Source: Pirellulales bacterium (GTDB taxonomy: Bacteria > Planctomycetota > Planctomycetia > Pirellulales > Lacipirellulaceae). Taken from it: DNA of 64,000 bases. Under the pieces are notes generated by a model. That model saw only the letters and a program-made list of their open reading frames with translations. It was not told the DNA's origin and searched no databases. Positions 14,082-46,615 of this stretch are shown one piece after another (position 1 is the first letter of the stretch; every line of letters starts with the position of its first letter). The stretch lies in the NCBI GenBank assembly GCA_028279215.1, contig JANQOF010000026.1, forward strand, positions 186,001-250,000. The letters are read 5' to 3'. Both the position numbers and the translations under genes were made by a program.

Positions 14082-15263
14082 ATGGGAAGCGAAGTCGTCG
14101 TGCTTAGCGGAGTGCGAACTGCCATTGGCGGTTACGGTGGTAGCTTAAAGGACACCCCTCCTACAGTCATGGCTGCAAGCTGCGTTCGCGAGGCGGTCAA
14201 GCGGTCAGGCGCCGCCCCCACCGATGTCGGACATGTGGTGTTCGGCAACATCATTCACACCGACTCTCATGACCACTACCTGGCGCGCGTGGCTGGTGTG
14301 AACGGTGGGCTACCGCATGAAGCGCCTGCTCTTACGCTCAACCGCCTGTGCGGCAGCGGCCTGCAATCGATCATCACCGCGGCCCAAACCATCATGCTGG
14401 GTGACGCTGAAGTGACGGTTGCTGGCGGAGCGGAGAACATGAGCCGAAGTCCGTACTTCAGCCAAGCGATGCGGTTCGGAGCACGGATGAACGACTCGAC
14501 GATGGTAGACGCCATGGTCGGAGCCCTATCCGACCCGTTCGACGACTGTCACATGGGTGTCACGGCCGAGAACGTGGCCAAAAAGTACAACATCTCGAGG
14601 GAAGACCAGGACGCGCTGGCAGTCGAAAGCCATCGCCGCGCCGGGGCCGCCATCGATCATGGTTACTTCAAAGCGCAGATCGTGCCGATCGACATCAAAG
14701 TGAAGCGCGAGATGGTGCCCTTTGAGGTCGACGAGACCGTGCGACACGGTGTGACCGTGGAAAAGCTATCGCGGCTGCCGACGGTCTTCGATCCAGAGGG
14801 AACGGTGACGCCCGGCAACGCTTCGAGCATCAACGACGCTGCCGCGGCAGTCGTGCTCGCCAGCCGCGAGTATGCCGAAGAAAAGGGTCTCAAGCCGATG
14901 GGTCGAATGATCGACTATGCGTACGCGGGCCTCGATCCCAAGTATATGGGCATGGGACCAGTGCCGGCTGTACGCAAGGTACTCGAGAAGACAGGCTTCG
15001 GCTACGACGACATCGACGTGTTCGAGGTCAACGAGGCGTTTGCCGCACAGGCCTTGGCGGTGTGCCGTGAACTGGGATTGCCGGAAGACCGGACCAACCC
15101 CAACGGCAGCGGCATCTCGTTGGGACATCCGATTGGTGCTACGGGCACGATCCTGACGGTCAAAGCCCTTTACGAGTTGAATCGAACCGGGGCCAAGCGC
15201 GCTTTGGTCACCATGTGCATCGGCGGCGGACAGGGTCTGGCAGCCATTTTCGAGCACGCTTAA
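14082..15263 (+). CDS. phaA: Acetyl-CoA C-acetyltransferase (beta-ketothiolase)
   Basis: PhaA condenses two acetyl-CoA to acetoacetyl-CoA, the first step of polyhydroxybutyrate synthesis. At 393 residues it has normal thiolase length. The nucleophile is Cys90 in 'LNRLCGSGLQS', the His of 'NEAFAAQA' to 'SGISLGHPIGATG' is present, and the second cysteine is in 'CIGGGQG'. It is preceded by GAGGAGG and the candidate sigma-54 promoter, and heads a run of thirteen closely spaced plus-strand genes. phaB follows after 87 bp. A propionyl-CoA-accepting thiolase (BktB-type) cannot be excluded, and the propionate genes downstream make this relevant. Confidence 0.94.
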   Translation: MGSEVVVLSGVRTAIGGYGGSLKDTPPTVMAASCVREAVKRSGAAPTDVGHVVFGNIIHTDSHDHYLARVAGVNGGLPHEAPALTLNRLCGSGLQSIITAAQTIMLGDAEVTVAGGAENMSRSPYFSQAMRFGARMNDSTMVDAMVGALSDPFDDCHMGVTAENVAKKYNISREDQDALAVESHRRAGAAIDHGYFKAQIVPIDIKVKREMVPFEVDETVRHGVTVEKLSRLPTVFDPEGTVTPGNASSINDAAAAVVLASREYAEEKGLKPMGRMIDYAYAGLDPKYMGMGPVPAVRKVLEKTGFGYDDIDVFEVNEAFAAQALAVCRELGLPEDRTNPNGSGISLGHPIGATGTILTVKALYELNRTGAKRALVTMCIGGGQGLAAIFEHA

Positions 15264-15350
15264 TGGCAGAGGTTGGCGACGCTGCATGAACAAGGCGCCG
15301 CCGAGGGACAACCGAACAGTATACGAAACAGATTGTACAAGGAGTTACCG

Positions 15351-16097
15351 ATGGGAAGGGTCGAAGGTAAGACTGCACTCATCACGGGTGCATCACGTGG
15401 TATTGGTAAAGCCATCGCTCTCGAACTCGCCCGCGAGGGCGCCAGGGTGGCCATTAACTACTCGAGCAACGAAGCCAAAGCCACGGAAGTGGCCGATGAG
15501 ATCGCGGCCATGGGCGGCGAGTCGATGATCGTTCAAGCGAACATCGGCGATGCCAAGGAGGCCCGCGCAATGGTCGAGAAGGTTGCCGATCACTTTGGGC
15601 ACCTTGATGTGTTGGTCAACAACGCCGGTATCACCCGCGATAGCTTGCTTCCGCGGATGACCGACGAGCAATGGGTGGAGGTCATCTCTACCAATCTAAA
15701 CGGGTGCTTTTTTTGCACGTCGGCAGCGATTCCCATTATGACCAGCCAAAGCTTCGGACGCATCATCAACGTCAGTTCGATGAACGGCCAGATTCCGGCG
15801 GTGGGGCAAGCGAACTACAGCGCGAGCAAGGGAGGTATCATCGCCTTCACGCGAACCGCGGCGGCCGAATTGGTAAGATCGGGCATCACAGTCAACTCGA
15901 TTTCACCCGGCTACACCGATACTGACATGTTCGCCGCTGTTCCCGACGCGATTCAAGCGCATATCAAGAGCAAGATCCCGTTGGGCCGATACGCTCACCC
16001 CGAGGAGATTGCCAAGACGGTCACGTTCCTGGTGGCCGACGGCGACTACATTACAGGTGAGCAAATCAACGTAAATGGCGGTGCACACATGGCCTAG
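15351..16097 (+). CDS. phaB: Acetoacetyl-CoA reductase / 3-oxoacyl-ACP reductase-type SDR
   Basis: This enzyme reduces acetoacetyl-CoA to (R)-3-hydroxybutyryl-CoA, normally with NADPH. The ATG at 15351 follows 'AAGGAG' and starts the typical 'MGRVEGKTALITGASRGIG'; the ORF-track start at 15273 adds an unlikely leader. At 248 residues it has the Rossmann motif TGASRGIG (12-19), the NNAG motif (90-93) and the catalytic Ser143, Tyr156 and Lys160 in 'YSASKGG'. FabG-like function cannot be excluded from motifs alone, but placement between phaA and phaC strongly favours PhaB. Confidence 0.93.
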   Translation: MGRVEGKTALITGASRGIGKAIALELAREGARVAINYSSNEAKATEVADEIAAMGGESMIVQANIGDAKEARAMVEKVADHFGHLDVLVNNAGITRDSLLPRMTDEQWVEVISTNLNGCFFCTSAAIPIMTSQSFGRIINVSSMNGQIPAVGQANYSASKGGIIAFTRTAAAELVRSGITVNSISPGYTDTDMFAAVPDAIQAHIKSKIPLGRYAHPEEIAKTVTFLVADGDYITGEQINVNGGAHMA

Positions 16098-16143
16098 GCG
16101 TGCAAGTTAGTCGAGGTGACTTTGACGCGAAGTGGGGAAGATC

Positions 16144-16527
16144 ATGAGTTCAGGAAACAACGAATCGTTCAATCCGTTCGACCCAAGCCAAATGTTCAAG
16201 GACATGCGGAATGCTGGCATGGACGCATGGGCCAAGACTATGGTCGAACTGGTCAACACCGATGCGTATGCCGAGGCGAGCGGATCGATGCTCGACGCCT
16301 GGCTGGGCGGTTCGGGCCCGTTTCGCGATGCGGTTGAGAGTGCGACGACCAACACGCTAAACAACCTCAACATGCCCAACCGCGACGACATCACTCGGCT
16401 CGCCGAGCGAATGACGAACATCGAGATGCGGCTCGACGATCTCGATGCCAAGTTGGACGAGTTGTTGCTCGTGGTGCGAAGTAGCAGCGGCGAGCATCAC
16501 AGGGACCGCGAAGAGGAGCCATCATGA
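16144..16527 (+). CDS. phaE: Short PhaE-like PHA synthase subunit
   Basis: A 127-residue helical protein just before phaC, overlapping it by 4 bp (ATGA). The N-terminal part 'MDAWAKTMVELVNTDAYAE' resembles the phasin/PhaE helical region, and the end 'MPNRDDITRLAERMTNIEMR' matches the 'LPTREE' plus leucine-heptad tail common to PhaE and PhaR synthase subunits. Class III synthases need PhaE for activity and granule association. It is much shorter than classical PhaE (about 350 aa) and nearer in size to the class IV PhaR subunit, so it may be a minimal form. GGGGAAG precedes the ATG at 16144; the GTG at 16132 is less likely. Confidence 0.75.
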   Translation: MSSGNNESFNPFDPSQMFKDMRNAGMDAWAKTMVELVNTDAYAEASGSMLDAWLGGSGPFRDAVESATTNTLNNLNMPNRDDITRLAERMTNIEMRLDDLDAKLDELLLVVRSSSGEHHRDREEEPS

Positions 16528-17615
16528 ACAAGACGACTAACGCCCTACCATCGCAGTTCAACGAAATCGGCAACGAATGGCATAACGCGGTCCAGCGGGC
16601 GCAGAGGTTTAATCGCCTGTTGACAACCGACGCCGATATTGCCCAGACGCCGAAGGAACTCGTATGGGCCCTGAACAAGGCGAAGCTCTATCACTATGTG
16701 CCGGTGGTTCCAGAAGCTGAGCGGAAGCCAGTGCCGCTGTTGATGGTGTTCGCCATCATGAACCGCCCCCATGTACTGGACCTTCGGCCTGGGCACAGCT
16801 TCGTGGAGTACATGCTCAAACGCGGCTACGACCTGTATCTGCTCGACTGGGGCGCGCCTGGCCCCGAAGACCAGGGTATGAAGTTCGACGACTACGCCCT
16901 TGAGTACCTACCGCGAGTGATACGCAAGTTAAAGGCGGTGTCCGGGTCGAGCGAGTTTAGCATGCTCGGGTGGTGTCTAGGCGCATTGATTTCGACCTTG
17001 TATGCATCTTTGCGGCCCGACGACGGGCTCAAGAATCTGATATTACTGACCGCGCCGCTCGATTTTACCGACAAGACCGCTGGCGCCTTTACGCGCTGGA
17101 CGAGCAACGCCTCGTTCAACCCCGATCTGATTGTGGAGAAATTAGGCAACGTGCCTGGGGAGATGATCGATGCGGGCGCCAAGCTGCTCAAGCCGGTGGA
17201 GAACTACGTGGGCAGCTACGTGATGTTGTGGGACAATATCGACAATCCCGGCACCACCGAGGCGTGGCACGCGATGAACACCTGGGTCCGCGACATCATT
17301 CCCATGGCAGGCTCTGCGTACAAGCAACTAATCAACGAGTTCTACAAGGAGAACCGGTTGATCGAAGGCTCACTTGTCATTCGCGGTGAACATGTCAAAT
17401 TGAGCAACTTAACAGCGAATCTGCTAAACGTGATTGCCGAGTCCGACCACATCACGCCGCCGTGCCAGTCGGAACGTATCATGGATCTGGTTGGCAGCTC
17501 GGACAAAGAGGTGTTCCGCGTCCGCGGAGGGCACATCGGCATTATGGCCGGTCGCGGTGCGGAAAAAAGCACCTGGCCACACATCGAGTCGTGGCTGGCT
17601 GCACGGTCCGCATAA
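16524..17615 (+). CDS. phaC: Poly(3-hydroxyalkanoate) synthase, class III type
   Basis: PhaC polymerises hydroxyacyl-CoA into PHA on the granule surface. At 363 residues it fits the short class III catalytic subunit. The lipase-like box is 'GWCLGA' with nucleophile Cys151, and 'LLDWGAPGPEDQ' is a class III/IV signature. The catalytic Asp and His are in 'AESDHITPP' and 'RVRGGHIGIMAG'. The gene overlaps the PhaE-like subunit by 4 bp, which supports a two-subunit synthase. The AarF-like kinase gene follows 25 bp later. Confidence 0.95.
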   Translation: MNKTTNALPSQFNEIGNEWHNAVQRAQRFNRLLTTDADIAQTPKELVWALNKAKLYHYVPVVPEAERKPVPLLMVFAIMNRPHVLDLRPGHSFVEYMLKRGYDLYLLDWGAPGPEDQGMKFDDYALEYLPRVIRKLKAVSGSSEFSMLGWCLGALISTLYASLRPDDGLKNLILLTAPLDFTDKTAGAFTRWTSNASFNPDLIVEKLGNVPGEMIDAGAKLLKPVENYVGSYVMLWDNIDNPGTTEAWHAMNTWVRDIIPMAGSAYKQLINEFYKENRLIEGSLVIRGEHVKLSNLTANLLNVIAESDHITPPCQSERIMDLVGSSDKEVFRVRGGHIGIMAGRGAEKSTWPHIESWLAARSA

Positions 17616-36796: not shown

Positions 36797-37816
36797 CTAT
36801 GTCGGGAAAGAGTGCTGCGTGGTGTAGTTACGCAACGCCTTCATGTAATTGGCACGCTCCAAGGCACTTGGGTCGGGGCAATTGCCACGGCTCATGCTAC
36901 CTTTCATCTGCTCGATCGAGTCATACTCCTTTTCTTCTAACCAGGCTTCCAAATCCGCAAGTAGCGTGGCCAAGAACTCGGGGCCCTTCATCAGTAGCAC
37001 GCTGGCGACCATCGTCACGTCGGCTCCCGCGAGCAACAACTTGATGGCTCCCTGAGCCCGATGAACGCCGCTCGTAGCGCCCAGCGACGCCGATAGCTGA
37101 TCGCGCAAGATCGAAATCCAACGCAACGGTACTCGTGCCTCGTGGCGGTTACTCAGAATCAAGTCGGGCTTGATATCCAGCGTGTCTAGATCGATGTCCG
37201 CTTCGAGATAACGGTTGAACAACACGAGTCCATTCGCCCCAGCGGCAACCAATGCCTGCGCGAAGTGGGGAAGGCTGGTGAAATTCGGACCGATCTTAAC
37301 CGCCAGCGGAATCGAAACCGATTGCCGCACCTCAGATACCAGGTCCACGTAGCGGCGTTCGACATCCGCGGCCGACATCATCGAATCGGTCGGTACGAAG
37401 TAGATGTTCAATTCCAGAGCGTCCGCGCCGGCCCCTTCAATCGCCTTGGCATAACGGACCCAGCCGCCGTGCGACGCTCCGTTGAGACTGCCGACAATGG
37501 GAATCGATATCGTCTGCTTCGCTTGCTCGATTTGCTGCAAGTACTCGTCGGGCCCGGTGTGATAGTCGGGGTACTCGGGAAAGTGGCTCAGCGACTCGGC
37601 AAACGATTCCGTCTGGTATTCGTACAGATCGGCGATTGCCCGCTCTTCATGCACAATCTGTTCTTCGAATAACGAAGGCATCACCGCCATCGACGCCCCC
37701 GCTTGCTCCAAACGCTCGAGCACATCCAATTCGCCTGTGAGCGGCGGACAGGCAGCGACCGCCAGCGGATTTCTTAGCGGTATGCCCAAGTACGTGGTTC
37801 TTAAATCGACGGCCAT
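36797..37816 (-). CDS. Dihydroorotate dehydrogenase-like FMN protein next to nifJ
   Basis: The ATG at 37816 ('MAVDLRTTYLGIPLRNP') lies 2 bp after the nifJ stop and gives 339 residues; the longer ORF runs into nifJ. The fold is the DHOD/FMN barrel: 'NPLAVAACPPLTGELD', 'IPIVGSLNGASHGGW', 'GADALELNIYFVP', 'PLAVKIGPNFTS' and 'GVHRAQGAIKLLLAGAD'. Proteins of this kind are often encoded beside pyruvate:ferredoxin oxidoreductase and have no proven pyrimidine role. It may be an accessory flavoprotein in the same redox pathway. True PyrD function is less likely given the context. Confidence 0.85.
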   Translation of the reverse strand: MAVDLRTTYLGIPLRNPLAVAACPPLTGELDVLERLEQAGASMAVMPSLFEEQIVHEERAIADLYEYQTESFAESLSHFPEYPDYHTGPDEYLQQIEQAKQTISIPIVGSLNGASHGGWVRYAKAIEGAGADALELNIYFVPTDSMMSAADVERRYVDLVSEVRQSVSIPLAVKIGPNFTSLPHFAQALVAAGANGLVLFNRYLEADIDLDTLDIKPDLILSNRHEARVPLRWISILRDQLSASLGATSGVHRAQGAIKLLLAGADVTMVASVLLMKGPEFLATLLADLEAWLEEKEYDSIEQMKGSMSRGNCPDPSALERANYMKALRNYTTQHSFPT

Positions 37817-37818
37817 AA

Positions 37819-40800
37819 CTAAACTTCCACCTCGATTACTTCCTCCAAGATTTCCCTCTCCACGCCGGCCATCTGCTCGTAATAGTGCCAACGATCGTCG
37901 ATGTCGCGTTGCGCCAGACCGAACAGATACTCCGCATGATCTGGATTGGTACGGGCAAGCATCGCGAATCGCGCCTCGGCCATCGCCAGGTCCTTAAACG
38001 GCTTCACCGGTTTGCGACTATCCAAGTGGAATGGCTGCTTGCCGGTTTGGGCTTCACGCGGATCGTAACGGAACAGCGGCCAGAAACCGGTCTGCACGAC
38101 GTCCTTTTGGTGCGTCATCGACGTTTCCATGTTAATGCCGTGGGCAATGCAGTGACTGTACGCCAAGATGAGCGATGGCCCGGGATACGATTCGGCCTCG
38201 CGGAACGCCTTGAGCGTTTGATTCGGATTGGCGCCCATCGCCACCTGCGCGACGTAAACGTTGCCGTACGACACGGCGAGCATTCCCAGGTCTTTCTTGC
38301 GGGCCGGCTTGCCAGCGGCGGCGAACTTGGCGACTGCCGCACGTGGTGTGGCCTTCGACATCTGGCCACCCGTATTGGAGTAAACGCCGGTGTCGAGCAC
38401 CAAAATGTTCACGTCGCGGCCGGTGGTAAGGATGTGGTCGAGCCCGCCAAAACCTATGTCGTACGCCCAACCATCGCCGCCGACGATCCAGACGCTGCGA
38501 TTGACCAGCACGTCCGCGATGGCCGACAGCTTCTTGGCATCGGGATGATCGCTATCGGCCAGTCGCGTGCGGAGCATCGCAATCCGCTCGCGCTGAGTGG
38601 CGATCTCCGCTTCGCCGTCGAGTGGTGCCTCGATCAACTCAGCTACCAAGTCGTCGCCCACGGTGCCCGCCACCTGGCGTAGCAAGTGTTCGGCGAAATC
38701 TCGCTTTTGGTCGATAGCAAGGCGGAGACCAAGCCCGAACTCGGCGGTGTCCTCAAACAGCGAATTATTCCAAGTGGGCCCCCTGCCCTCTGAGTCTTGA
38801 CACCACGGCGTAGTAGGTAGGTTGCCGCCGTAGATTGAGGAGCAACCCGTCGCGTTGCCAATCATCGCGCGGTCGCCAAATAGTTGACTCATCAGTTTCA
38901 GGTACGGCGTCTCGCCGCAGCCCGAGCAAGCGCCAGAGAACTCGAACAACGGCTCGAGCAACTGCGAGCCTTTCACCGTGTCGATCTTCGCTTGCGTGCG
39001 GTCGACCTCGGGCAAGCTCAAGAAGTAATCGAAGTTGGCGCGCTCTTGCTCGAGGTGCGAAAGCTTCGGCTCCATGTTGATCGCCTTGTGCTTGACCACT
39101 TCTTTGCTCTTCGCTGGGCAAACATCGACGCACACTCCGCAACCGGTGCAATCGTCGGGCGCCACTTGAATGGTCGCCACATGATCGACTAGTTCTTTGC
39201 CTTTCCACCTCTGCGTTTGAAATCCGTCGGGCGCTCCGTTGAGCGAAGCCGCCGGGTACGCCTTCGAACGAATCGCCGCGTGGGGGCATACAAGTGCACA
39301 CAGCCCACACTGGATGCAGATTTCGGAGTCCCAGATGGGAATCTCCTGCGCGATACTCCGTTTCTCGATGCGGGCAGTACCGGTGGGGAACGTACCGTCG
39401 ACCGGCATTGCGCTGACAGGTAACAAATCGCCAAGACCAGCGACCAACATTGATGTGACTCGACCAACAAAGTCGGAACCGTTGCTGGCAACGAGCGCCT
39501 CGCGTTGCCTGGTGCTGGTAGCCGAGTCGGGTACCGCGACCTCGTCGAGCGCGCTGAGCGCGCCGTCGACTGCCGCGTAGTTTCGCCGCAGTACCGATTC
39601 GCCGCGCGTGCCATACGTCTTCTTGATCGCCGCCTTGATCTGCTCGATCGCCTGATCGCCTGGCAACAGGTTAGCCAGCGAGAAGAAGCAGGTCTGCATG
39701 ATAGTGTTGATCCGCGATCCCATTTCGGCCTCGCGGGCGACTCGATACGCGTCGACCACATAGAACTTCAATTGCTTCTCGATGATCTGCTGCTGGACCT
39801 CTCGCGGCAACCGATCCCACACTTCTTCTGGTCCGTAGGGGCTATTAAGCAAGAACGTGGCCCCTGGTTCCGCGACTTTGAGCATATCGATTCGCGAGAG
39901 GAAACTGAACTGGTGACACGCGACGAAGTTGGCGCGCTCGATTAAGTAGGTGGAGTTGATCGGCCGAGGACTAAATCGCAGGTGAGAAACGGTGACCGAT
40001 CCCGACTTCTTGGAGTCGTATACAAAGTAGCCTTGCGCGAATTGGTCAGTGTTCTCGCCGATGATCTTTACTGAGTTCTTGCTCGCACCCACGGTTCCGT
40101 CGCTGCCCAGCCCGTAGAATACCGCCCGCATTACGTCGTCTGGCTCAGTGGAAAACTCGGGGTCCCACTTCAGGCTTAGATTCGTGACATCGTCTACGAT
40201 CCCGATCGTGAAGTGGCGTTTGGGTTGCTCGGCTTTCAATTCCTCGAAAATGCGAGCCACCATGGCCGGCGTAAACTCTTTGGACGAAAGGCCATAACGC
40301 CCACCGATGACTCGCGGCATGCGGGAAAATCGATCATCTTCGGCCAGCGCCGTGACAACGTCCTGGTAAAGCGGCTCGCCAATCGCGCCGGGTTCCTTTG
40401 TACGGTCCAAAACGGCGATCGACTCAACCGTTGCAGGAATCGCGTCGAGAAAGGCCGCGACGTCGAATGGCCGATACAAACGAACTTTGACCAGCCCCAG
40501 TTTTTCGCCACCGCCGTTAAGCCGCTCGATCGCTTCCTCTGCGGCGCCGGTGCCGGAGCCCATCATCACGATCACCCGGTCGGCATCCTTGGCGCCAACG
40601 TAGTCGAACAAGCCGTAGTGTCGCCCCGTTAGATCGCCGAAGCGTTGCATTGTCTCGCGAACGATGTCGGGCAGGGCAAGGTAAAACGGGTTGGCGGCCT
40701 CGCGCGCTTGAAAGAACACATCGGGGTTCTGAGCCGAACCACGCAGCACAGGCCGATCCGGATTCATGGCCCGCTCACGATGCTCATGAATCAACTCGTA

Positions 40801-41400
40801 GTCGGTCAGCGCCACGATGTCGTCGTCGGAGAGTTGGGCAATCTTGTTGACTTCGTGCGAGGTACGGAATCCGTCGAAGAAATGCACAAACGGCACGCGC
40901 GACTTGAGCGTCGCGGCCTGAGAAATCATCGCCAGGTCGTGCACCTCCTGCACCGACCCCGACGCCAACATGGCCCAGCCTGCCTGGCGAACCGCCATCA
41001 CATCGCTGTGGTCGCCAAAAATCGAGAGCGCGTGCGTGGCGAGCGATCTGGCCGATATGTGAAAAACCGTCGGCGTGAGTTCGCCGGCGATCTTGTACAT
41101 GTTGGGGATCATCAACAGCAGGCCCTGCGACGCGGTAAACGTCGTAGAGAGCGCGCCCGCCTGCAGGGCCCCATGCACGGCGCCCGCCGCGCCGGCCTCG
41201 CTCTGCATTTCTATCACGTCGGGAACCACGCCAAACAGATTCTTGCGCTCGCGGGCCGACCACGCATCCGCGAACTCACCCATGGGAGATGCAGGCGTGA
41301 TAGGGTAGATCGCAATGACTTCGTTGGTCATGTGAGCGACGCGGGCCGCCGCTTCATTTCCATCGACTGTTACAAAAGTTGCCGAGTTCACCGGTCGCAA
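37819..41400 (-). CDS. nifJ: Pyruvate:ferredoxin (flavodoxin) oxidoreductase
   Basis: NifJ decarboxylates pyruvate to acetyl-CoA and reduces ferredoxin or flavodoxin. The 1193 residues carry all fused domains in order: domain I ('ATFVTVDGNEAAARVAHMTN' with 'AIYPITPASPMGEFADAW'), the gamma-like region, and two 4Fe-4S clusters ('CIQCGLCALVCPHA' near residue 692 and 'CTGCGVCVDVCPAKSKE'). The thiamine-diphosphate domain follows with 'CSGCGETPY' and 'GGDGWAYDIGFGGLDH'. Length is full for the homodimeric type. The DHOD-like gene follows after 2 bp. In an organism otherwise likely aerobic or facultative, this enzyme would feed both acetyl-CoA and low-potential electrons to the adjacent PHA and Nfn genes. 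Confidence 0.96.
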   Translation of the reverse strand: MRPVNSATFVTVDGNEAAARVAHMTNEVIAIYPITPASPMGEFADAWSARERKNLFGVVPDVIEMQSEAGAAGAVHGALQAGALSTTFTASQGLLLMIPNMYKIAGELTPTVFHISARSLATHALSIFGDHSDVMAVRQAGWAMLASGSVQEVHDLAMISQAATLKSRVPFVHFFDGFRTSHEVNKIAQLSDDDIVALTDYELIHEHRERAMNPDRPVLRGSAQNPDVFFQAREAANPFYLALPDIVRETMQRFGDLTGRHYGLFDYVGAKDADRVIVMMGSGTGAAEEAIERLNGGGEKLGLVKVRLYRPFDVAAFLDAIPATVESIAVLDRTKEPGAIGEPLYQDVVTALAEDDRFSRMPRVIGGRYGLSSKEFTPAMVARIFEELKAEQPKRHFTIGIVDDVTNLSLKWDPEFSTEPDDVMRAVFYGLGSDGTVGASKNSVKIIGENTDQFAQGYFVYDSKKSGSVTVSHLRFSPRPINSTYLIERANFVACHQFSFLSRIDMLKVAEPGATFLLNSPYGPEEVWDRLPREVQQQIIEKQLKFYVVDAYRVAREAEMGSRINTIMQTCFFSLANLLPGDQAIEQIKAAIKKTYGTRGESVLRRNYAAVDGALSALDEVAVPDSATSTRQREALVASNGSDFVGRVTSMLVAGLGDLLPVSAMPVDGTFPTGTARIEKRSIAQEIPIWDSEICIQCGLCALVCPHAAIRSKAYPAASLNGAPDGFQTQRWKGKELVDHVATIQVAPDDCTGCGVCVDVCPAKSKEVVKHKAINMEPKLSHLEQERANFDYFLSLPEVDRTQAKIDTVKGSQLLEPLFEFSGACSGCGETPYLKLMSQLFGDRAMIGNATGCSSIYGGNLPTTPWCQDSEGRGPTWNNSLFEDTAEFGLGLRLAIDQKRDFAEHLLRQVAGTVGDDLVAELIEAPLDGEAEIATQRERIAMLRTRLADSDHPDAKKLSAIADVLVNRSVWIVGGDGWAYDIGFGGLDHILTTGRDVNILVLDTGVYSNTGGQMSKATPRAAVAKFAAAGKPARKKDLGMLAVSYGNVYVAQVAMGANPNQTLKAFREAESYPGPSLILAYSHCIAHGINMETSMTHQKDVVQTGFWPLFRYDPREAQTGKQPFHLDSRKPVKPFKDLAMAEARFAMLARTNPDHAEYLFGLAQRDIDDRWHYYEQMAGVEREILEEVIEVEV

Positions 41401-41564: not shown

Positions 41565-41996
41565 CTACTTACCAACTTTCGTTGTCAGCTCACTCCATTT
41601 GTTGACAGCCTCCTGGAACTCGTTCATTTGGGTCTCCGAGATCTCCCGCATGCATTCGAACGTCTTGCGGAACAATTGCTCGGTTCTGGCTCGCAACTCT
41701 TCTGGATTGCTCGATTCGGTCATGCGTAGCGCCTCTTCGAGCGATTCAAGTCCTGCTTGATACTGGCGATCGAGGGCATCCCGATGCTTCCTGGCCAGAT
41801 CCGAAACAGTGGCGACCCATTGGTGTTGGAAGTCGCGCACCTTCTCCATCCAAGCCGCCTGCGGTGTGGGAAATCCGGGCCACATCACTCCCCACTGCCG
41901 CAACATTTCTTGCTGCATCTTCAGGCTCGATTCGGCAGCCATGCGAAAGTTCTTGAATACGTCGTCATACACATTCGCTACGGTATCGGTAGTCAT
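41565..41996 (-). CDS. phaP: Phasin-family granule-associated protein
   Basis: Phasins coat PHA granules and control their size. The 143-residue protein is all-helical and amphipathic ('VYDDVFKNFRMAAESSLKMQ', 'DLARKHRDALDRQYQAGLES') with no signal or membrane segment. Its N-terminal 95 residues align by eye with the N-terminal domain of the phasin-SDR fusion nearby (for example 'AAESSLKMQQEMLRQW' against 'AANQNLKLQSQLLYDW'). An AAGGAGG-type site precedes the ATG. It is divergent from phaR with a TGC-N3-GCA palindrome between, a common regulator/target arrangement. Confidence 0.8.
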   Translation of the reverse strand: MTTDTVANVYDDVFKNFRMAAESSLKMQQEMLRQWGVMWPGFPTPQAAWMEKVRDFQHQWVATVSDLARKHRDALDRQYQAGLESLEEALRMTESSNPEELRARTEQLFRKTFECMREISETQMNEFQEAVNKWSELTTKVGK

Positions 41997-42228: not shown

Positions 42229-42729
42229 ATGTCTGTTGAACGTGTTCACATCAAGCGATATCCCAATCGCCGTTACTACGCGCGGCAATTGAGCAAGTAC
42301 GTGTCGTTGAATGAAATCGAGGACATGATCCAAGCCGGTCAAACGATCGAGGTGCACGACAGTCAATCGGGTGAAGATCTGACGCGATCGGTGCTCGCTC
42401 AAATCATCGTCGAACGCCATCCCGACAAGATGGAACTCTTCCCCACGGACATGCTCCATTTCATCTTGCGTTCGAACGACGCGATGTCGAGTTTCTTGCG
42501 GGACTATTTCCGACATTCGATTACCTATCTCGAGTATCTCCACCGGCACGGCGGCAGTCCGTCGCTCGTCAATCAACCAACCCACTGGCTTAAAGCCTGG
42601 CTCGATTGCCTTACTCCCAACACCACTGAGGATGCCGCTGCCGACTCAACCAGCAGCGACGATCCTCTGGTCGAGCGGGTGAACCAACTCGACCAACGAC
42701 TGCGCCATCTCGAATCACGAAACGATTGA
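42229..42729 (+). CDS. phaR: Polyhydroxyalkanoate synthesis repressor
   Basis: PhaR senses free PHA or hydroxybutyrate and represses phasin and its own synthesis until granules form. The 166-residue protein starts with the conserved DNA-binding domain 'VHIKRYPNRRYYARQLSKYV' and 'EIEDMIQAGQTIEVHDSQSG'. The central 'VLAQIIVERHPDKMELFPTD' and 'MLHFILRSNDAMSSFLRDYF' match the PHB-accumulation regulatory domain. A low-complexity acidic tail ends in a short coiled coil ('VERVNQLDQRLRHLESRND'). It is divergent from phasin and converges with the phasin-SDR gene. Confidence 0.93.
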   Translation: MSVERVHIKRYPNRRYYARQLSKYVSLNEIEDMIQAGQTIEVHDSQSGEDLTRSVLAQIIVERHPDKMELFPTDMLHFILRSNDAMSSFLRDYFRHSITYLEYLHRHGGSPSLVNQPTHWLKAWLDCLTPNTTEDAAADSTSSDDPLVERVNQLDQRLRHLESRND

Positions 42730-42758: not shown

Positions 42759-43991
42759 CTACGCTGGCGGATGCCATCCCGCGTCCGCCCACAGCTCGCC
42801 GCTGACCGCCGAATTGGAGATCATGAAGCAAACCGCGTCCGCAATCTCCTCCGGGCGAATCAGCCGGCGAAGCTGCGTAAATGGCAACACGTACTTGTCC
42901 AGGAACTCGTCGCCCAATGCCCGAGCCATTGGTGTATCGGTGAAGCCAGGATGGATGATGCCGCAACGGACGCCATGGAAAATGGCCTCCTTCATCAACG
43001 TGGCGGCGCCACCCTCCAGCCCCGCCTTGGCAACGGCGTAAGAGATTTGGCCTTTGTTGCCTTGCGACGACACCGATCCTAGGAACACTACGGCGCCTTC
43101 CATCTCCTCGGCCGGTTCCCACTTCTTCAGCCCACGCCGACGACGATCCTCAGCAATCCGGGCAACCATCTCGACGGCCCAATAAATGGGTGCGATCAGG
43201 TTCACTTCCGTGACCTTGCGAAAGTCGTCAATGGGGTACAACGATGCCTTACCGGTCTCTTTGTCCAAACGAACCGACAGAGCATCACGCGTGATGCCGG
43301 CGGCCGGAACACAGATCCGCACTAGCCCGTGACGGGCTGCTGCGTCGTCGAACACCTTGGCGCGGAACTCCGCGTTGCTGGTGTCGCCAATCACGGCGTC
43401 CGCCACGTCGCGACCGGTCTGCTCGTTGATAGCGCTGGCGGTATGGTGCACCTGGTCGTTTAGGTCGACCATCACAACCGCACGCGCGCCACGAGCGGCC
43501 AAGTCCCGCGCAACTGCGGCACCAATGCCGCTGGCTGCACCGGTTACTACCGCTACACGTTGAGCAATATTCATGACGTGACCTCTGTCGGATACAGGAA
43601 CGACTTGCGTCGGCTCGCTCGTTGGCTCCTCCAATACTTCTTGATAACGAGGAGATGCGACGACCGGGCGTTCAACGGCCGGAGACGAAGGACTGGCGCT
43701 CAGAGAACGCATCTGTGGCCAGAGCGTCTCGAAGGACTTGATTGCAGCGTCGAACTGCTGGTCGATCACCTCCTGCTGGCCCTTAGCCAGGTTCATGACC
43801 ACGTCTGCCCAACCTTGCTGCATCTGGCGCAAGGGATTGAGCAACGACAGCGGTTCGCCCTCAGATCGATGCCAGACGCGGGTCCAGTCGTAGAGTAGCT
43901 GGCTTTGTAGCTTGAGATTCTGATTCGCCGCCCTTCGAAACGTATCGAACAGTTCGGCGTACGCAGAAGGTTGTTTGGTCTGCTTGGCCAT
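42759..43991 (-). CDS. Phasin-SDR fusion: granule-targeted acetoacetyl-CoA reductase-like protein
   Basis: The ATG at 43991 follows CAGGAGG and gives 410 residues. Residues 1-95 are a phasin-like helical domain, paralogous to phaP next door ('YAELFDTFRRAANQNLKLQS'). A Ser/Pro linker covers about 96-138. From 'MNIAQRVAVVTGAASGIGAA' (Met140) the rest is a short-chain dehydrogenase with TGxxxGIG, a 'CVPAAGI' region, 'GSVSSQGNKGQISYAVAKAG' (Ser, Tyr, Lys triad) and a C-terminal 'SGELWADAGWHPPA'. Met140 (ATG at 43574) itself has AGAGGTC 5-6 nt upstream, so a free SDR could also be made. The fusion suggests that 3-ketoacyl-CoA reduction is tied to the granule surface. The reading frame is continuous. 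Confidence 0.85.
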   Translation of the reverse strand: MAKQTKQPSAYAELFDTFRRAANQNLKLQSQLLYDWTRVWHRSEGEPLSLLNPLRQMQQGWADVVMNLAKGQQEVIDQQFDAAIKSFETLWPQMRSLSASPSSPAVERPVVASPRYQEVLEEPTSEPTQVVPVSDRGHVMNIAQRVAVVTGAASGIGAAVARDLAARGARAVVMVDLNDQVHHTASAINEQTGRDVADAVIGDTSNAEFRAKVFDDAAARHGLVRICVPAAGITRDALSVRLDKETGKASLYPIDDFRKVTEVNLIAPIYWAVEMVARIAEDRRRRGLKKWEPAEEMEGAVVFLGSVSSQGNKGQISYAVAKAGLEGGAATLMKEAIFHGVRCGIIHPGFTDTPMARALGDEFLDKYVLPFTQLRRLIRPEEIADAVCFMISNSAVSGELWADAGWHPPA

Positions 43992-44255
43992 TGCAGTCCT
44001 CCTGTTGGTTCGGCGTTGAGTAGACATCCCCTCTGCCGACCCGAGTTGAAAAGCAAACGTCGTGCCCGCCCGCCGAGAACTACACACTTGTGTATGGCGA
44101 AATGCTGCAAGTGCGTGATTGCCTAGGCCTTTTGGCTCAACAGGTTATGTCCTGCCGACCGTGGAATCTGCTGGTGGGTCGCTGGGTGTCGATTCATCGG
44201 TACAGGAACGCACGATCGGGTGTGCATAAACGCCCACTTCGAGCCGAAGAGTGGG

Positions 44256-45686
44256 TCACCAAACGCCTGTTTCCAGGTACTGGTGTATCGATTTTGCCGC
44301 CGTCCGCCCAGCACCCATCGCCAAAATGACGGTAGCGGCACCACTTACGATGTCGCCGCCGGCAAACACCCCCCGGCGGCTCGTGCGGAGCGTTTGATCG
44401 TCGGCAACAATGTAACCCCATTTGTTGGTATCGAGCCCTGGCGTCGACGCTTGCACCAACGGGTTCGCGCCGGTGCCAATGGCGATCACCGCCACGTCGA
44501 TCGGCATGACGAACTCGGATCCCTCAATCGGCACTGGCCGCCGCCGCCCCGAATCGTCCGGTTCACCCAGTTCCATCTTTATGAGCTGGACGCCCGTCAG
44601 ATAACCTTCGTCGTTGCCGAGGAACTCAATTGGGTTGTGGAGATTCATGAATTGGACGCCTTCGTCGCGCGCATGGTGAACCTCCTCGGTGCGGGCTGGC
44701 ATCTCCTCTTCGCCGCGGCGATAAACAATGTAGGCGTTCTTGGCTCCCAATCGCAGCGCGGAACGGACAGCATCCATGGCGGTATTTCCGCCACCCATCA
44801 CGGCCACGTTCCGGTCGCGGCACTCGTAAATGGGCGAGTCAGAATGTTCCGTATCGTACGCCTTCATCAGATTCACGCGGGTGAGGAACTCGTTAGCCGA
44901 GTAAACGCCGCCCAGGTGCTCGCCTGGCAGGTTCATGAACCTAGGCAATCCGGCCCCCGTGGCGATGAACACGGCTTCATAGCCCTCTTCGTCGAACAGC
45001 TCGTCCATGGTCACCGTCTTACCTACAACCACGTTGGTTTCAAACTCAACGCCCATGCGTCGCAGATTCTCGACTTCGCCTCGGACGATTTCCTTCGGCA
45101 ACCGAAACTCGGGGATTCCATACACGAGCACGCCGCCAATCTCGTGTAGGGCTTCGAGCACGGTGACGTCGTGGCCCTTGAGTGTTAGATCGCCGGCGCA
45201 ACTCAAGCCGGCCGGCCCGCTACCAACAACGGCCACCTTCTTGCCGGTCGCGGGCGCCCGCTCCGGTAAGCCAACTTGTCCGGTCGCTCGTTCGTAATCG
45301 GCAACAAATCGTTCGAGGTGCCCAATCGCCAACGGGGCGAATCGCTTTGACAGGATGCACGCACCTTCGCACTGATTTTCTTGTGGACAAACTCGGCCGG
45401 TCACGGCGGGTAGCACGTTGTCTTCGCGAATCTTCGCCGCAGCGTCCAAGTAGTTCCCTTCGAGCACCAGATCGACAAACTCCCGAACCTGCACGCCCAC
45501 TGGGCACCCGTGCATGCACTTAGGATCCGTACAGGACAAACATCGTTGGGCTTCTTTCTCAGCGAGCGCGGATTCGAAGCCAAGATTCACCTCGTCGAAG
45601 TTGCAGGCCCGCTCTTGCGCATCACGTTCGGGCATCTCCTGCCGTGGTACCTTCGTCCGCTCTTTGGGAGGAAGTCGTTCAGCCAT
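44256..45686 (-). CDS. nfnB: NADPH-dependent Nfn large subunit / glutamate synthase small-chain-like flavoprotein
   Basis: The ATG at 45686 ('MAERLPPKERTKVPRQEMPE') yields 476 residues; the longer ORF is a shadow leader. N-terminal Cys motifs for 4Fe-4S clusters are 'CLSCTDPKCMHGCPVGV' and 'GRVCPQENQCEGACIL'. Two dinucleotide folds follow, 'VAVVGSGPAGLSCAGDL' and 'NVAVMGGGNTAMDAVRS', and a final FAD segment 'GVFAGGDIVSGAATVILAMG'. This is the GltD/NfnB family. Because an NfnA-type gene with an iron-sulfur tail lies 38 bp upstream, the pair is best read as ferredoxin:NADP+ transhydrogenase rather than glutamate synthase; no gltB is present. Confidence 0.88.
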   Translation of the reverse strand: MAERLPPKERTKVPRQEMPERDAQERACNFDEVNLGFESALAEKEAQRCLSCTDPKCMHGCPVGVQVREFVDLVLEGNYLDAAAKIREDNVLPAVTGRVCPQENQCEGACILSKRFAPLAIGHLERFVADYERATGQVGLPERAPATGKKVAVVGSGPAGLSCAGDLTLKGHDVTVLEALHEIGGVLVYGIPEFRLPKEIVRGEVENLRRMGVEFETNVVVGKTVTMDELFDEEGYEAVFIATGAGLPRFMNLPGEHLGGVYSANEFLTRVNLMKAYDTEHSDSPIYECRDRNVAVMGGGNTAMDAVRSALRLGAKNAYIVYRRGEEEMPARTEEVHHARDEGVQFMNLHNPIEFLGNDEGYLTGVQLIKMELGEPDDSGRRRPVPIEGSEFVMPIDVAVIAIGTGANPLVQASTPGLDTNKWGYIVADDQTLRTSRRGVFAGGDIVSGAATVILAMGAGRTAAKSIHQYLETGVW

Positions 45687-45724
45687 GACGTTGCCTATCG
45701 GTTGGGTATTGGATGAGGGCCAAT

Positions 45725-46615
45725 TTATGGAGCTTGCACGTCGGGGCCAACGTCTGGGTGCTGTAGTCGCAACTGGCAACAATGCTCGCTCGTGAGTTCG
45801 AGTTGCTCGAGCGCTCCACGCTCGTGGCGCCGATACATCGTGTTTCTCTGCGCTAGGATCGTGAAATCGACATCGTGGGCGTCGAACTCGGGACCGTCGA
45901 CGCAGGCAAACTTGCTCTGCCCGCCGACAAGCACCCGGCAGCCACCACACATGCCAGTTCCGTCGACCATGATGGGATTCAGGCTGACGATCGTGGATAT
46001 GTCGCGGGGTCGAGTTACGTCCGCGATTGCCTGCATCATGGGGATTGGCCCGATGGCCAGGACATGATCGATATTGCGTCCTTCCTCTAACAACGACTGC
46101 AACTTCTGTGTGACGAAGCCTCGCTCGCCGTAGCTGCCGTCGTCGGTCATGAAGTACAACTCGTCGGTCGTTGCGCCCATTTCTTGCTCCAAGATCAGAA
46201 TATCCTTGGTCCGTGCTCCGACGATTCCGATGACGTGGTTGCCCGCCCGCTTCAAGGCCACGGCGGTTGGGTAGGCAATGGCGGTTCCAACTCCGCCTCC
46301 CACCACGACGACCGTGCCAAAGTTCCGAATATCGGACGGTTGGCCCAAGGGCCCCACCACGTCGGCAATCGTTTCACCGGGCTGGAGCATGTTGAGGAGT
46401 TTGGTGGTCTTACCGACACCTTGGACGATGAGTGTGATTGTGCCGTCATCTTCGTCGGAGTCGGCGATGGTCAGCGGGATTCGTTCGCCGAATTCCGCGT
46501 CCACGCGAACGATGACAAATTGGCCCGCTTGGCGTCGGCGGGCAATCCGCGGAGCGCCAACACGGATGAGCCTGATATCTGGTGCCAGTGTCCGAGCCTC
46601 GGTTACCACAAACAT
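45725..46615 (-). CDS. nfnA: NfnA-type ferredoxin-NADP+ reductase subunit
   Basis: The 296 residues show an FNR-like FAD domain ('GQFVIVRVDAEFGERIPLTI'), an NAD(P) domain ('VVVVGGGVGTAIAYPTAVAL', 'HVLAIGPIPMMQAI') and a C-terminal 2Fe-2S site, 'GTGMCGGCRV' with 'FACVDGPEFD'. This is the NfnA/SudB layout. With NfnB it would couple NADH and reduced ferredoxin to NADP+ reduction (or the reverse) by flavin-based electron bifurcation. The C-terminal 45 residues after 'MYRRHERGALEQ' are less conserved. Nothing else in the window would consume the ferredoxin produced by NifJ. Confidence 0.87.
   Translation of the reverse strand: MFVVTEARTLAPDIRLIRVGAPRIARRRQAGQFVIVRVDAEFGERIPLTIADSDEDDGTITLIVQGVGKTTKLLNMLQPGETIADVVGPLGQPSDIRNFGTVVVVGGGVGTAIAYPTAVALKRAGNHVIGIVGARTKDILILEQEMGATTDELYFMTDDGSYGERGFVTQKLQSLLEEGRNIDHVLAIGPIPMMQAIADVTRPRDISTIVSLNPIMVDGTGMCGGCRVLVGGQSKFACVDGPEFDAHDVDFTILAQRNTMYRRHERGALEQLELTSEHCCQLRLQHPDVGPDVQAP

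Follow-up and report, generated by a model that had tools for sequence, protein, structure and literature searches.

In the 64,000-nucleotide stretch of Pirellulales DNA analysed in this study (the window), we observed a gene that encodes a natural fusion, as judged by sequence, of a phasin-like segment to a short-chain reductase (SDR) beside genes of PHA metabolism. The gene is an uninterrupted frame of 410 aa on the minus strand, running from an ATG at 43991 to a stop at 42759, and its start is preceded by a strong ribosome site, GGAGGACTGCAATG. The features discussed are listed in Table 1. An AlphaFold2 model, for which window and locus proteins made up the input alignment, has helices at residues 10-42 and 51-98, disorder at 107-139 and an SDR with pLDDT mostly above 90. 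The original prediction had described a continuous frame across both halves and had named a sequencing error or a stop between them as the finding that would speak against it. The frame is open in the window and likewise in ten more distinct genes of other assemblies, and sequencing error is therefore excluded. The source genome is a draft of 83 contigs, but the same architecture is present in independent assemblies, including the single-contig genomes G003 and G291. The probability that an assembly or sequencing artefact joined two genes is thus practically negligible, and this reading was rejected on account of the orthologous fusions.

Table 1. Coordinates of the fusion gene, its parts and the associated features in the window.
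Feature	Position	Strand	Basis
Fusion gene (phasin-like segment, linker and SDR)	42759..43991	-	Open frame; orthologous fusions in ten other distinct genes
Residues 1-96, phasin-like segment	43704..43991	-	BLASTP, hhalign, AlphaFold2 helices, dN/dS
Residues 97-139, linker	43575..43703	-	Poor conservation; pLDDT < 50 at 107-139
Residues 140-410, classical SDR, FabG/PhaB-like	42762..43574	-	Pfam, residue counts, Foldseek
Possible internal start ATG (Met140) with upstream AGAGGT; unconserved	43572..43586	-	Codon comparison
TGC-rich inverted repeat TGCTGCAAGTGCGTGA, candidate PhaR operator	44103..44118	.	11/14 match; 110-127 nt upstream of fusion start
PhaR-type regulator of PHA accumulation	42229..42729	+	PF07879 3.8e-22; TIGR01848 9.7e-26
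Stand-alone phasin, 143 aa, three predicted helices; paralogue of fusion N-terminus	41565..41996	-	Pfam Phasin_2, model
phaA-type beta-ketothiolase (BktB-like), separate canonical cluster	14082..15263	+	NF006552 7.7e-189
Canonical phaB-like reductase	15273..16097	+	TIGR01829 3.4e-83
Class III-type PhaC	16524..17615	+	TIGR01836 2.6e-97

The N-terminus had been proposed to be paralogous to the neighbouring phasin, and the comparisons agree with this. Over residues 9-88 the fusion shares 29% identity with the 143-aa protein encoded next to it (BLASTP, E 5e-12), and an hhalign comparison with profiles of the stand-alone phasin family gave a probability of 99.6 (E 5.7e-25, 93 columns); shuffled N-termini (n=200) reached 4.3 bits at best, versus 50-76 bits for the real ones. 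A lack of phasin similarity in profile searches, which had been named beforehand as an argument against the fusion, was found for one kind of profile only: the Pfam phasin models gave no Phasin_2 match in any of nine fusion proteins, whereas the family of the adjacent phasin was matched clearly. The phasin nature of the segment therefore rests on paralogy. In the stand-alone family, whose genes neighbour phaR and, in relatives, also phaC, all 22 members match Phasin_2 at E < 0.1, weakly but uniformly (best 4.5e-6); the window member stays below the cut-off of this model (PF09361; E 0.016, 15.9 of 24.9 bits), and the L035 relative clears it with 27.2 bits. The model of the stand-alone phasin, with a pLDDT of only 67, has helices at 3-38, 46-93 and 98-142. 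As two helices are predicted in the fusion against three in the stand-alone protein, the fusion is predicted to hold the first two phasin helices, without the third, and not a whole phasin. The maximal hydrophobic moment of the segment lies above that of most shuffles, only at 24-47 of 500. A PDB structure search with the low-confidence three-helix model gave no match at E < 0.001, and in a search of the PDB with the phasin sequence profile only designed bundles were matched. A second weak Phasin_2 match in the same genome (G000:C47:24512-24766, E 0.027) lies inside a 644-aa frame and is probably a chance helical match.

Residues ~140-410 belong to an SDR (PF13561, 9.4e-31) and carry the Ser-Tyr-Lys triad that had been claimed for the part beginning at residue 140. 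The residues assigned are G151/G155/G157, D176, N264, S306, Y318 and K322; the triad (S306, Y318, K322), the TGxxxGIG glycine motif and D176 are invariant across the 79/79 relatives compared, among which the AGITRD motif, common to FabG/PhaB, is near-identical. An SDR whose second strand ends in Asp is predicted to use NAD(H), and Asp176 accordingly predicts NAD(H) as cofactor of the fusion SDR; the canonical PhaB of the window has a Ser in this place. Foldseek neighbours (E about 1e-19) are FabG, the NADH-dependent FabG2 and 3-hydroxyacyl-CoA dehydrogenases. The fusion SDR scores far below the cut-offs of the PhaB models NF042966 (81.7 of 436 bits) and TIGR01829 (113.5 of 302 bits) and of the FabG model TIGR01830 (120.5 of 297.75 bits). 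Proteobacterial SDR orthologues (L037-L100), with 60-68% identity, occur widely in Gammaproteobacteria at sites outside pha clusters, and they stay below every curated family cut-off considered here.

Searching planctomycetes for the phasin plus SDR architecture, as the original prediction had suggested, yielded eleven distinct fusion genes, all in Planctomycetota (window, L009, L010, L011, L023, L024, L025, L026, L027, L103 and L104); L009 is from Aeoliella straminimaris and L010 from the same genus as the window. The SDR was detected at E <= 1e-60 in 21/397 Pirellulales genomes, and in seven of the 21 it is fused. No other enzyme was found on the phasin segment in 398 genomes of the class, in which all frames of > 400 aa with a match came from SDR-fusion genomes. 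The N-terminal segments of the fusions form one clade versus the stand-alone phasins (support 98/96). In the SDR tree, the fusion SDRs group with a single unfused sequence, that of L028 (94/82, at an unresolved fork), and the unfused L012/L017 are the sister of this group (98/89). The SDR of L028 (6010-6822), which falls within the fusion clade or next to it, has no upstream phasin segment, possibly by secondary loss. A single fusion event followed by loss in L028 is the simplest reading of the trees and the probable one, and the SDR tree leaves room for two fusion events.

The unfused relatives suggest where the two parts came from. In L029-L033 the SDR gene follows the phasin gene; in L034 an operon-like run of phasin, phaA, phaB, phaC and SDR lies divergent to phaR, and similar arrangements with the SDR ending the operon-like run were observed in L035, L086 and L097. 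Because the unfused SDR directly follows phaC or adjoins the phasin, the fusion joins neighbours of the pha cluster. A duplicated phasin gene lost its predicted third helix and was joined in frame to the neighbouring SDR gene. Further reduction took place in L104 (G291), which lacks helix 2 and most of the linker but still has helix 1 and reads in frame into the SDR; L103 (G377), from the same genus as L104, does not have this deletion. Between the window and L009 the N-terminal segment has a dN of 0.45 and a dS of 1.8 (ratio about 0.25), with a dN/dS of about 0.2 where dS is unsaturated, while the SDR reaches about 0.05 between the closest fusions and the linker is near neutral, all of these figures being rough because synonymous sites are near or at saturation in most pairs. 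By this measure, both folded parts are under purifying selection, and the fusion persists in several planctomycete families.

It had further been proposed that one gene yields both a granule-bound and a free reductase, the latter through translation that also starts at Met140. The ribosome site claimed for this start does exist: AGAGGT lies at 43586-43581, with a 6-nt spacer to the ATG at 43574, and the junction ATG is preceded by AGGAGG in L011 and by AAAGG in L009. However, the codon at the SDR junction is ATG in only 3/11 fusion genes (window, L009 and L011). It is ACG in L010, from the same genus, CAG in L023, AAG in L024, AGG in L025, AAT in L026, CGC in L027 and AAG in L103 and L104, so that other families have no start at the junction. 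An internal start as a conserved device was therefore rejected, and a free reductase is at most a lineage-specific possibility; a dual product could still occur in the three genomes with an ATG. We also rejected the idea that the internal ribosome site is a relict of the leader of an unfused SDR, since DNA similarity to such leaders was reached by 80 of 200 shuffles. The dual-product part of the original prediction is weakened by these results, and a free reductase made in addition to a granule-bound one now seems improbable.

The pha-locus setting of the fusion was confirmed: PhaR (90 bits against the 109-bit cut-off of TIGR01848) and the phasin adjoin it, and PhaR, PhaC or a phasin lies near the SDR in 28/29 PVC loci vs 1/50 proteobacterial loci, in which distant pha genes may have been missed as planctomycete seeds were used for the count. 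About 25 kb away, the window holds a canonical phaA-phaB-phaC cluster (14082-17615), and for this reason the fusion SDR is not the sole candidate acetoacetyl-CoA reductase. Canonical phaB and phaC are present in 9/9 fusion genomes checked, with PhaB 74-84% identical (100% being the window itself), which makes the fusion a second reductase in these genomes. The unfused order in L034, with phaB and the SDR both present, likewise makes the SDR an additional pha-cluster enzyme and not PhaB. Since the proteobacterial orthologues lie away from the pha genes (as found with the seeds used), the substrate of the SDR need not be a PHA monomer. Possibly, then, the SDR serves a non-PHA metabolism and the phasin-like segment acts only in oligomerisation or stability, which would fit the 50 proteobacterial orthologues that, bar one, lie outside pha clusters, as well as the scores below the PhaB cut-offs. 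We consider this quite unlikely in view of the tight linkage to pha clusters across Planctomycetota and Verrucomicrobiota, the operon-like run shared by SDR and phaC, and the element resembling a PhaR box upstream. Other genes are found at the same locus. A pyruvate:ferredoxin oxidoreductase (TIGR02176, 1810 bits) and a dihydroorotate-dehydrogenase-like gene flank it at 36797-41400, and a GltA-like and PRK06222-like pair lies on the other flank at 44256-46615. This pair resembles NfnAB, the NADH-dependent ferredoxin:NADP oxidoreductase. The gene order NfnAB-like / fusion / PhaR, phasin, pyruvate:ferredoxin oxidoreductase is kept in L021 and L022.

A different role for the N-terminal helices has to be weighed. 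They might be a protein-docking segment for the phasin or for class III PhaC, a substitute for PhaE that brings the SDR to the synthase. The only PhaC found by searching the window's own genome is of class III type, and no match to the PhaE family (PF09712) was obtained in four genomes, though control genomes likewise gave none. One member of the phasin family has a weak match to the PhaE model (E 0.029), and helix 1 with its WTRFWPGF-like motif is kept even in L104. Against this, the matches across the family go to Phasin_2 and not to PhaE, and we regard such docking as unlikely.

Control of the fusion by PhaR is suggested by an inverted repeat, TGCTGCA-NN-TGCAGCA, which was found upstream of 11/11 fusion genes. 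It is perfect in L024, L025, L026 and L104, matches at 13/14 positions in L103 and at 12/14 in L027, and reaches 11/14 in the remaining five, including the window, where it is thus degenerate; L103 (13/14) and L104 (14/14) had been left out when the palindrome was defined. The summed score was reached by 0/1000 shuffles, also when the three perfect copies that had suggested the motif were omitted, and unrelated starts of the window used as control promoters were shuffle-like (357/1000). Phasin promoters are enriched in the palindrome as well, with copies upstream of the phasins in L034, L035 and L097. PhaR boxes are TGC-rich (PMC10888616), and the published PhaR site of R. sphaeroides is CTGCNNNGCAG, as cited in PMC12542648. 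The palindrome is a candidate for the PhaR box of planctomycetes, in which the centre would count four bases instead of three.

Taken as a whole, we favour, with some confidence, a granule-anchored NAD(H)-linked 3-ketoacyl-CoA reductase or (R)-3-hydroxyacyl-CoA dehydrogenase under PhaR control. Enzymes can be placed on PHA granules by fusion to a phasin or to a PhaF tag shortened by 67%, and a portion of a phasin is enough to keep them there (PMC5658603, PMC7267194); lists of granule-associated proteins also include reductases (PMC5658603). Attachment of the fusion to granules, with a ketoacyl-CoA as substrate, is plausible. We infer that the two helices, putatively amphipathic, would attach to the surface of the PHA granule or to its phasin coat in the manner of parts of known phasins, and that the flexible linker would let the SDR form its usual tetramer at the granule. 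There, the SDR would interconvert acetoacetyl-CoA or another 3-ketoacyl-CoA and the (R)-3-hydroxyacyl-CoA, with a preference for NAD(H). Working beside the separate NADPH-type PhaB, it may couple granule turnover and the NADH pool, whichever way the reaction runs. PhaR, encoded by the neighbouring gene, would repress the fusion via the TGC-rich operator until polymer is present, as for phasins. It is tempting to speculate, although this is doubtful, that such a granule is a redox valve. Its 3-hydroxyacyl-CoA dehydrogenase/reductase would be covalently anchored by the phasin part, NAD(H)-linked and induced through PhaR upon polymer formation. In this lineage the gene has pyruvate:ferredoxin oxidoreductase and NfnAB-like genes on its flanks, and the polymer surface would pass electrons to and from the NADH pool directly, with NADPH left to soluble PhaB. 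Should the location on granules be borne out, the granule surface would be a place for monomer redox chemistry, the fusion would provide a natural minimal anchor of two helices (one in L104), and the planctomycete PHA metabolism, hardly described so far, would be opened to direct tests.

Both parts of the protein are of known kinds. That no standard description of their fusion exists agrees with our search of open-access papers, in which no natural phasin-SDR fusion was found; within these papers the natural joined form appears to be new, although this does not prove that no description exists. Biotechnology displays enzymes on PHA granules by phasin fusion, and evolution appears to have built the same construct. 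Like engineered granule enzymes (BioF/MinP and PhaP1 fusions; PMC5658603, PMC7267194), the protein combines an enzyme with a phasin part, but it is natural, evolutionarily maintained, probably an enzyme of PHA metabolism, and has a partial phasin only. With Phasin_2 proteins (PF09361, PhaP type) it shares a helical segment that is paralogous to the phasin encoded beside phaR; unlike them, it has an attached enzyme and only the first two of the three predicted helices, in a segment to which the phasin models give no match. The SDR resembles PhaB/FabG in its Rossmann fold, the Ser-Tyr-Lys residues and the AGITRD motif, and differs from them in scoring below both cut-offs, in ending strand 2 with Asp (NAD(H) type) where the window PhaB has Ser, in a longer loop before the catalytic Ser and in its coexistence with a canonical PhaB. 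Finally, the locus recalls the PhaR-regulated phasin genes of Alphaproteobacteria (PMC12542648, PMC10888616), having phaR nearby and a TGC-rich palindrome upstream; however, the palindrome of the fusion is CTGC-N4-GCAG and not N3, and its target is an enzyme fusion.
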